Source of the DNA: an uncultured Lachnospiraceae bacterium
Lineage (GTDB): Bacteria; Bacillota; Clostridia; Lachnospirales; Lachnospiraceae
Direction: 5' to 3'
Length of the DNA stretch: 39,057 nucleotides
Assembly: GCA_946623875.1 (NCBI GenBank)
Contig: CAMORO010000018.1
Location: 1 to 39,057 of the forward strand
A program made the translations under genes and the position numbers. This document shows, one piece after another, positions 17,580 to 20,162 of this stretch (the first letter of the stretch is position 1; every line of letters begins with the position of its first letter). The notes under the pieces were generated by a model. It was not told the origin of the DNA. It ran no database searches and was given only the letters and a program-made list of their open reading frames with translations.

Positions 17580-18497
17580 TTAACTGCTGAGCGCCTCTGC
17601 GCCGCCTATGATCTCAGTAAGTTCCTGAGTGATATGACCCTGTCTTGCCCTGTTGTACTGAAGCTCCAGAGTTCCGATCATCTCTTCGGCATTGCTGGTT
17701 GCGGAATCCATTGCCTGCATTCTCGCACCGTTCTCACTGGCTACCGCTTCTATGAGCGCACCATAGATAATGCTTGCCATATACTTGGGGATGATCAGGT
17801 TAAGCGCCTCTGTTTCTTCAGGTTCGTAATTCATCGGCACACTTATCCTTTTTTCATCGGCTGCTTCCGGCGGATCAGATCCCTCAAGCTCAGACGTTCC
17901 GTTGGAAGCGTTGACATCCGCTCTGCTGTTTACATCTACCGGTAACAACCGGAGCAAAGTGGGAACATGGCTGACCGTGTTCTTAAATCCTGTATATGCC
18001 AACCATATTTCTCCTATTTCCTGTGCTTCGTATGCCTTAAGAAGCTCCCCGCTTATCTCCATTGCATCCTTGTACAGCGGTTCATTAACTACCTCTGAGT
18101 AATCAGACTTAATAGTGTATCCACGGCGTTTAAGCACATCCCTGCCCTTCTTTCCCATGGCATACACAAGGATATCATTTCTGTCCCAGTCAGTACCGGT
18201 TACAAGCCTGACGATATTGGAATTGTATCCTCCCGCCAGACCTCTGTTTGATGTTATCACAACAACTGCCTTTTTTTCAGAGGTTCCTTTTATAAGATAC
18301 GGATGATCTGTATTGCCCGTCCTGGCTATTATACGCTTCACGGTATCATACATACAGTTGAAATATGCCTTCGATCGTTCCGCACGTGTTTTGGCTCTCT
18401 GCAGCTTAACCGTTGAGACCAGCTTCATGGCCTTTGTAATCTGCTGTGTACTCTGTATACTGGTCTTACGCCTTTTTATATCTCTCATCGAGGCCAT
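17580..18497 (-). CDS. atpG: ATP synthase F1 subunit gamma
   Basis: The 305-residue central shaft of F1. The conserved N-terminal helix (MASMRDIKRRKTSIQSTQQITKAMKLVSTVKLQ) and C-terminal helix (RMQAMDSATSNAEEMI and YNRARQGHITQELTEIIGGAEAL) are clear. A hydrophilic stretch of roughly 25-30 residues (about 198-228, DVNSRADVNASNGTSELEGSDPPEAADEK) makes it longer than the usual 285 residues. AGGAGAATTAAAT precedes the ATG. The structured repeat at 18521-18654 lies directly upstream and may set its translation level relative to alpha. Confidence 0.96.
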   Translation of the reverse strand: MASMRDIKRRKTSIQSTQQITKAMKLVSTVKLQRAKTRAERSKAYFNCMYDTVKRIIARTGNTDHPYLIKGTSEKKAVVVITSNRGLAGGYNSNIVRLVTGTDWDRNDILVYAMGKKGRDVLKRRGYTIKSDYSEVVNEPLYKDAMEISGELLKAYEAQEIGEIWLAYTGFKNTVSHVPTLLRLLPVDVNSRADVNASNGTSELEGSDPPEAADEKRISVPMNYEPEETEALNLIIPKYMASIIYGALIEAVASENGARMQAMDSATSNAEEMIGTLELQYNRARQGHITQELTEIIGGAEALSS

Positions 18498-18520
18498 ATT
18501 TAATTCTCCTATTTCATGTT

Positions 18521-18654
18521 ACTATTCATAACACGCTCAAAATGCTTCGCATTTTTCGCTGCATCGGATTCATCCGATACATGGATTTTCACCATGTCTC
18601 TTTCGTGCAAGCACGACGATCCATGTTTAAAATCCATGTGCCGTTATGAATAGT
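18521..18654 (-). repeat. Structured 134-bp element between atpA and atpG
   Basis: Read on the minus strand, an outer 12-bp stem ACTATTCATAAC/GTTATGAATAGT (18654-18643 with 18532-18521) encloses three hairpins: CATGGATTTT/AAAATCCATG (18638-18629 with 18589-18580) with an inner TCGTG-CTTG-CACGA (18616-18603); TCGGA-TGAA-TCCGA (18577-18564); and AAAATGC-GAA-GCATTTT (18555-18539). Loops of the CTTG, TGAA and GNA kind are typical of stable RNA hairpins. It fills the gap from the atpA stop, which it overlaps by one base, to just before the atpG ribosome site. A second, partial copy starts the window. No T run follows, so it is not a terminator. Confidence 0.85.
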
Positions 18655-20162
18655 CATTTGACAAACTCTGCCTTGAAATCCTCGATAGCCTTCTTGAGCT
18701 TAGCCTCGGCTTCATCAGACACAACCTTTGTCTCCTTAATGGAAGCCGGAACCTCGGGAATGTTCGTCCTTACATACTCGAAGAAATCATTCTCAAACTC
18801 GACGATCCTTGCCACGGGTATATCAAGCAGATACTTGTTTACCGCAACATAGATGATCATAACCTGATACTCAACCGGCATGGGCTTGTACTGAGGCTGC
18901 TTAAGTATCTCCTTGATACGTTCACCCTGTGCCAGCTTTTCCTTGGTATCGGCATCAAGTTCAGAACCGAACTGCGCAAAAGCGGCAAGTTCTCTGTACT
19001 GTGCAAGCTCTGTACGGATGGGGGCCGATATCTTCTTCATGGCCTTGATCTGAGCGGCACCACCAACCCTCGATACCGACAGTCCGGCATTAACGGCCGG
19101 TCTGAAGCCTGAGTTAAACATCTCAGTCTCAAGATATATCTGTCCGTCTGTAATGGATATTACGTTTGTGGGAATATATGCCGAAACATCACCTGCCTGA
19201 GTCTCTATTATCGGCAGCGCGGTAAGCGAACCTCCGCCGTATTCCTCACTCATCCTGGCTGCACGCTCAAGCAGTCTTGAATGAAGATAGAATACATCAC
19301 CCGGATAAGCCTCACGTCCCGGCGGACGACGAAGCAGCAATGACAGTGTACGGTATGCAACCGCATGCTTGCTCAGGTCATCATAGATAACGAGAACATC
19401 CTCCCCGTTCTCCATCCACTCCTCGCCTATGGCACATCCTGAGTAAGGAGCTATATACTGAAGGGGAGCCATCTCCGATGCAGTGGCTGCAACTACCGTT
19501 GTATATGCCATTGCATTGTATTCCTCAAGAGTTTTTACGATGGAAGCTACGGTGGAAGCCTTCTGTCCTATCGCAACATAGATACACTTAACTCCCTGAC
19601 CCTTCTGATTGATTATTGTATCTATCGCTATCGCGGTCTTACCGGTCTGTCTGTCACCTATGATAAGCTCACGCTGGCCTCTGCCTATCGGGATCATCGA
19701 ATCGATAGCTTTAATACCGGTCTGCAGCGGTGTATCTACCGACTTTCTCGTGATAACACCCGAAGCAACACGTTCAATCTGGCGATATTTATCTGTCTGT
19801 ATCGGACCCTTGCCGTCGATCGGCTGACCAAGAGCATTTACAACACGTCCGAGCATTGCATCGCCGACCGGGACCTCAACAACACGTCCCGTTGTCTTAA
19901 CGGTATCACCTTCGTTTATGTTCCTGTCCGCGCCAAGCAGAACCGCACCGACATTGTCTTCCTCAAGGTTAAGCACCATGCCGAACACTCCGCCCGGGAA
20001 TTCAAGAAGTTCATTCATCATTGCCTTCTCGAGTCCGTGAACACGTGCGATACCGTCTGCAACCTGAATTACGGTACCTACTTCGGATACCTCCAGTTCA
20101 CCGGCATATCTCTTAATCTGATCCTTAATTACAGAACTTATTTCTTCCGGTCTTAAATTCAT
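18654..20162 (-). CDS. atpA: ATP synthase F1 subunit alpha
   Basis: The 502-residue non-catalytic nucleotide-binding subunit of F1. The P-loop GDRQTGKT is at 169-176, [25 protein letters not shown] is intact, and the C-terminal helical domain is complete. The length is normal. It follows atpH by 73 bases. Its stop codon touches the structured repeat that separates it from atpG. Confidence 0.98.

Follow-up and report, generated by a model that had tools for sequence, protein, structure and literature searches.

The target duplications of the Correia (NEMIS), ERIC and RUP repeats are of the TA type. These repeats are approximately 100-200 bp in length and are characterised by inverted ends and base-paired transcripts (PMC2229807), with ERIC and NEMIS serving as precedents for altered mRNA processing in the account of Delihas (2007, PMC2229807). 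Insertion sequences of the ISBst12 type, a group within IS66, have only one transposase gene, and the transposition of one of its members, ISDge4, is described with an 8-letter repeat, CCTCGATG, and the ends GTGACTACTCAGCA and GTAACTGCTCAGCA (PMC12898284). The Clostridiales-1 motif, catalogued in Rfam as RF01699, appears in a 2010 compilation as a probable, non-cis-regulatory RNA (Weinberg et al. 2010, PMC2864571).

The element described here, found in the 39,057-nucleotide window (the whole stretch of DNA that was analysed) between the genes coding for the alpha and gamma subunits of the F1 ATPase, resembles each of these systems in part. Very probably it is a non-autonomous transposable element (MITE) that was inserted here long ago, with ends of the ISBst12 type of IS66 and a folded interior. 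Size, inverted ends and, by prediction, base-paired transcripts are features it has in common with ERIC, NEMIS and RUP, but the ends of those repeats are different, and the element is distinguished by an 8-bp duplication, a three-hairpin interior and extensive covariation. Like the ISBst12-type elements ISGst1 and ISDge4 it has ends starting with GTAACT (GTAACTATTCAG in ISGst1) and 8-bp target duplications, whereas those elements are approximately 1.5-1.6 kb long with one transposase gene and the present element is geneless. RF01699 likewise presents an outer stem enclosing three hairpins on the same strand, in which a GCUUGC tip terminates the first, long hairpin and a GNA loop the last, and each of the two models matches some of the loci of the other. 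The high-scoring RF01699 members differ, however, in their ends (TGATGCCAGGGTCAAAAG) and 5-6-bp duplications, and the copy at the atp junction falls under the cut-off of that family.

Position and parts of the element

The element, its parts and its neighbours are as follows:

18518..18657, minus strand (atp mRNA sense): whole element (MITE); 128.5 bits over positions 1-143 of 143 in our own covariance model, this copy being one of the 75 from which the model was built
18641..18657, minus strand: 5' terminal inverted repeat, containing the atpA stop codon TGA (18654-18656)
18579..18639, minus strand: hairpin A, a long stem with the tip GTGCTTGCAC (G(CUUG)C loop); from the fold and pair counts (helices 2 and 3)
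18563..18578, minus strand: hairpin B, ATCGGA-TGAA-TCCGAT; from the fold and pair counts (helix 4)
18535..18559, minus strand: hairpin C, GCGAAAAATGC-GAA-GCATTTTGAGC with a GNA loop; from the fold and pair counts (helix 5)
18518..18534, minus strand: 3' terminal inverted repeat, reading GTTACTATTCATAACAC on the plus strand
18506..18510, minus strand: AGGAG, the ribosome-binding-site-like sequence of atpG, outside the element; from the sequence
18654..20162, minus strand: atpA (F1 alpha); TIGR00962, 838 bits
17580..18497, minus strand: atpG (F1 gamma); TIGR01146, 283 bits
1..85, plus strand: second copy of the element; 73.7 bits in our own covariance model, model positions 59-143, 5' end missing

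Profile matches confirm atpA and atpG as the neighbours, and as part of an F1Fo operon. At its gathering threshold Rfam recognises two tRNAs only in the window. An earlier note on this DNA had delimited the structure at 18521..18654, touching the atpA stop codon and filling the entire intergenic gap. Its placement at the stop codon is upheld with corrected boundaries (18518-18657), which overlap the codon at 18654-18656; this TGA occupies the position where the ends of most copies have TAA. The gap is not filled, as approximately 20 nt, with the ribosome site in between, are left from the end of the element to the start of atpG. A second copy, formerly placed at 1-87, is genuine but incomplete at its 5' end, since the contig starts inside it. 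The start of a contig within a repeat copy is as expected of short-read assembly breaking at repeats. Adjoining the stem of hairpin C (18535-18559) is a tandem G-A opposite A-G (GCGA/GAGC), which looks like a structured internal loop; Watson-Crick pairs are found there instead in copies L082 and L156.

The repeat family and its candidate transposase

Comparison of the element with its own genome (2.8 Mb) by BLAST (E <1e-4) gave 26 matches, including the query and its own inverted arm, approximately 18 of which are near full length and dispersed; the number rises to 39 when matches up to E 10 are counted. Within the genus, the element is matched in 14 of 37 genomes, its own included and two (G007 and G017) with one weak match each, and several genomes hold copies that are 100% identical to the query. 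The 23-base left end was found in 68 stretches of Lachnospiraceae MAGs, some from goat rumen, a count from which the window's own record may be omitted. The element is 140-143 bp in length and encodes no transposase, and common to the aligned copies, which occur in both orientations, are 17-bp terminal inverted repeats (GTAACTATTCAGAACAG and its complement). Among the 54 copies having both ends and flanks, an 8-bp target duplication is exact at 19 sites and at least 7/8 matching at 26, compared with 0.1% exact in a shuffled-partner control, while exact duplications number zero at 5, 6, 7, 9, 10 and 11 bp and two at 4 bp. The same ends were also read at another 20 sites (19 from other genera, many with different interiors); the 8-bp duplication is exact at eight and has one mismatch at six, no separate control accompanying this set. 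The copy at the atp junction has no recognisable target duplication. Short, geneless and dispersed, with inverted ends and a fixed-length duplication, the element is a small non-coding MITE of rumen bacteria.

For 60 of the 75 aligned copies there was enough flank to determine the arrangement of the neighbouring genes from mechanically called ORFs. Between co-directional genes there are 16 copies in sense and 13 in antisense orientation; a further 24 are in other arrangements, six overlap an ORF call and one is incomplete. Divergence of the copies was not significantly related to their orientation (p 0.08 to 1, five tests), and with these counts an orientation bias was discarded as a sign of function.

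When up to two mismatches are allowed, the 17-bp end occurs at 141 sites in the genome of the window, compared with 13 when the reversed end is used as control. Numerous ends among them are single; several directly precede genes, and some follow a -10-like sequence (e.g. L058, L052, L063:3362 and L065:622). They may be copies in decay or may constitute a 5' leader motif of their own. Single ends were rejected as autonomous elements because the eight partnerless loci lead into other genes or into no convincing gene, and visual inspection of the translations of these eight revealed no recognisable transposase. Longer versions with the same ends are found in L218-L222 (genomes G005 and G008; 189-279 bp), L177, L157, L181, L183 and L186. 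Enclosed between these ends are additional hairpin modules, one of which has CTTATGAC arms while another is a double hairpin with CTTAG arms, so that the family is modular. Fifteen stretches of viral contigs carry one exact 17-bp end each, but the model of the element matched none of them, and a protein search on these stretches returned no relative.

Candidates for the mobilising enzyme were sought among the IS66 transposases, genes being filed as ISBst12-type by similarity to ISGst1 rather than to a classical IS66 gene. In ISGst1 of Geobacillus the ends read GTAACTATTCAGCC and the 8-bp duplication is exact. Six of the seven plasmid loci with ISBst12-type elements have ends beginning GTAACT together with an exact 8-bp duplication, with the reservations that candidate end pairs had been ordered by how well their duplications matched and that near-identical relatives of ISGst1 account for three of the six. 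The ends GTAACTATTCAGCC are present at four of the seven, and GTAACTATTCAG, the end motif of the element, is likewise common to four; at the seventh locus (Halomonas) no GTAACT-type ends were found. Within the genus, only parts of an ISBst12-like transposase were seen, at contig ends of the MITE-rich genome G020, one being followed by GTTACAGTTCAGACCC, with four mismatches to the end of the element. An ISBst12-type transposase is encoded at a contig end in G074, 500 bp behind GTTACTGTTCACACCC, and scores above the cut-off of PF03050 and below that of the NCBIfam IS66 model. IS66 transposases (PF03050) are present in three of nine further genomes of the genus and seven of 16 from other genera, with the MITE ends at no scanned locus, and the loci scanned in the genus and other genera did not include a complete autonomous element with GTAACTATTCAGAAC ends. 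A single classical IS66, comprising three open genes, is present in the genome of the window (contig C135); it was rejected as the direct partner in view of its ends, GTAAGCGTCTAACTTA, with the 8-bp duplication TCTTTTTT, and the ISBst12 type is the better match. From the observed ends and duplications of the family we infer an ISBst12-type DDE transposase, which would act in trans on the GTAACTATTCAG ends, generating target duplications of 8 bp.

Folding and the place of the element in the atp operon

The outer stem and three hairpins reported in the earlier note are present. On the atp-sense (minus) strand, the predicted fold of 151 nt has an energy of -57.6 kcal/mol compared with -32.2 +/- 3.4 for shuffled sequences (z -7.5), none of 200 shuffles being as stable. 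The plus strand folds similarly (-49.7 against -26.3 +/- 3.1 for shuffles), and 261 nt of the minus strand including flanks give a z of -5.0. Across 75 distinct copies 92% of cells are paired, a proportion that falls to 30-47% when partners are slid by 1-3 columns. Both sides have changed in 44 of the 59 pairs, against a shuffle mean of 16.7 and none of 500 shuffles as high, although the shuffles do not preserve relatedness among the copies. Two compensatory differences had previously been noted between the two copies in the window, AAATAC/GTATTT versus AAATGC/GCATTT and TTGGA/TCCAA versus TCGGA/TCCGA; both are correct and belong to a larger number of such changes. The junction copy itself has eight compensated and two broken pairs out of 50, where random substitutions would give 0.84 and 14.0, respectively. 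The fold of the element is thus under constraint, and the further copies across the genome and the genus, together with the pair covariation among the 75 copies, support the claim of the earlier note of a covarying multi-hairpin element.

Pairing of this kind may be kept at the level of DNA rather than of folded RNA, by hairpin-templated repair or through a cruciform or single-stranded form in transposition, a possibility to be taken seriously even though we consider it the less probable case. Symmetrical changes are also found in the terminal repeats, and in L084 and L186 much of one stem has been swapped with pairing retained, both of which favour such a DNA-level origin. GNA and CTTG loops are, furthermore, stable in DNA also. 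Against it, albeit weakly as the copies are related, stands the excess of G-U over C-A in the sense orientation, which amounts to 28 vs 8 cells and 17 vs 8 pairs in the inner helices once the variable internal loop is left out. Over all 59 pairs the numbers are 85 and 48 cells, and in the variable internal loop there is no excess (18 G-U, 19 C-A). The G-U excess is suggestive of folding as RNA of the atp sense, with the same reservation that the copies are related. The interior of the MITE, approximately 100 nt, would be viewed as a hairpin chain kept either by selection for folding or by palindrome-restoring mutation.

An atpG match was obtained in 36 of the 37 genomes of the genus and the junctions were read at 30 loci. 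The element occupies the same junction in the genome of the window (G000), G005 and G031, with the atpA stop codon inside its end, and a remnant is found in G009. A short gap of 10 to 70 nt is present instead at 26 of the 30 junctions, and the 16 of these searched with the model of the element gave no match. While atpA and atpG are 94.7% identical between G000 and G005, the element junction is 71% identical; between G005 and G031 the genes are 84% and 73% identical and the junction 96%. The identity of the junction contradicts that of the genes, which suggests, on the strength of these sequence comparisons, that the site was exchanged by short-tract recombination or re-invaded by insertion at the one site. 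The retention of the element at the atp site could reflect tolerance or use.

A special role of the structure in the AtpA:AtpG ratio, raised as a possibility in the earlier note, is not supported. An RNA dedicated to cis-regulation of the atp operon, lowering atpG translation or protecting the upstream message, would be in keeping with the stable fold with and without flanks, the occupation of the same junction in three genomes and its remnant in a fourth, and the diverged junction copy in which the pairs are nevertheless kept. In the 261-nt fold model the atpG start codon is, moreover, mostly paired, its partner being atpA-coding sequence. The copies of this MITE are, however, dispersed beside other genes in all orientations, both sense and antisense to their neighbours; the relatives predominantly have a short gap at the junction; and the family generates target duplications, for which reasons an atp-specific regulator was rejected as the main reading. 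Furthermore, the element does not include the AGGAG of atpG, the bases of which are mostly unpaired (per-base unpaired probabilities of 0.94, 0.89, 0.66, 0.72 and 0.39 in the same model), and the age of copies inside operons is not significantly related to their orientation. Such a dedicated regulator is consequently considered very unlikely.

Under the preferred reading as a MITE insertion, the end of the element contains the atpA stop codon and the element stands between atpA and atpG, leaving the ribosome site of the latter outside. Its RNA is predicted to fold in the atp transcript, where it would probably constitute a stable folded spacer with a neutral or mild effect on atpA-atpG mRNA processing, and little or mild effect on atpG may be expected.

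Partial kinship with the Clostridiales-1 RNA

The earlier note knew of no named RNA family of this form, but the element is a below-cut-off relative of RF01699. At a permissive threshold, the junction copy matches the full RF01699 model (positions 1-166) on the atp-sense strand with 33.4 bits, the cut-off being 48. In the permissive search (E up to 1) five of seven sources were matched, L186 and L211 being the exceptions, while at E up to 0.1 there were matches in two of five copies and none in L005, L088 and L186, the former two of which are consensus-like. In the reverse search, 30 high-scoring RF01699 loci were compared with the 75-copy model. Matches at E <0.01 (best 1e-6) were obtained for 11 and at E up to 1 for 17, with 13 remaining without a match; the 11 stronger matches are on the RF01699 strand and some of the weaker ones on the opposite strand. 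Nothing was matched by this model in 31 control loci (194 kb). The genome of the window contains five RF01699 matches, three above the cut-off, and two of these three, L284 (59.1 bits) and L285 (56.1 bits), start with GTAACTATTCAGA, the end motif of the element. At 17 same-end loci from other genera there is no over-cut-off RF01699 match at the element itself, that of L300 lying elsewhere. With this partial kinship, the element appears to be a divergent RF01699 relative with other ends, its interior being related to the Clostridiales-1 RNA in architecture and loops.

Of 299 sampled Lachnospiraceae genomes, 130 contain RF01699 matches that exceed the cut-off. A recognisable right end is present in 23 of the 30 high-scoring loci (L253-L282), the ends reading TGATGCC...AACATCA, and among these 23 there are 11 exact 5-bp and, at four others, exact 6-bp duplications, compared with 3% and 0% in the controls, three boundary offsets having been tried. 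The duplications are AT-rich. RF01699 thus appears, at least in good part, to be a set of MITEs; no description of either RF01699 or the element as mobile emerged from the open-access papers that were searched. The full-length match on the mRNA strand and the reverse model matches would also accord with the element being simply a member of RF01699 and a stand-alone small RNA gene. This is considered unlikely, given that the junction copy scores below the cut-off, that high-scoring RF01699 members themselves have inverted ends and duplications, and that the sole promoter-like site in 18300-18900, from a simple consensus scan, is on the opposite strand.

A further, tentative and rather doubtful, extension is that the folded interior with the Clostridiales-1 fold is a mobile structured-RNA cassette, carried as payload by unrelated transposon ends, those of the ISBst12 type with 8-bp duplications here and the TGATGCC ends with 5-6-bp duplications in the high-scoring RF01699 members. 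If true, a catalogued 'sRNA' family would be a superfamily of RNA-structured MITEs that switched mobilisation systems, and the Clostridiales-1 fold would be selected while the copies reside in host mRNAs.

Assignment to the MITEs places a puzzling intergenic structure in a known class. RF01699, which is annotated as an sRNA, is suggested to be mobile, and if so its automatic annotation would have to be corrected. With dozens of copies, the element family provides a natural case in which to ask for what reason a multi-hairpin fold is maintained in a transposon by compensatory change, and also what such folds do within essential operons.
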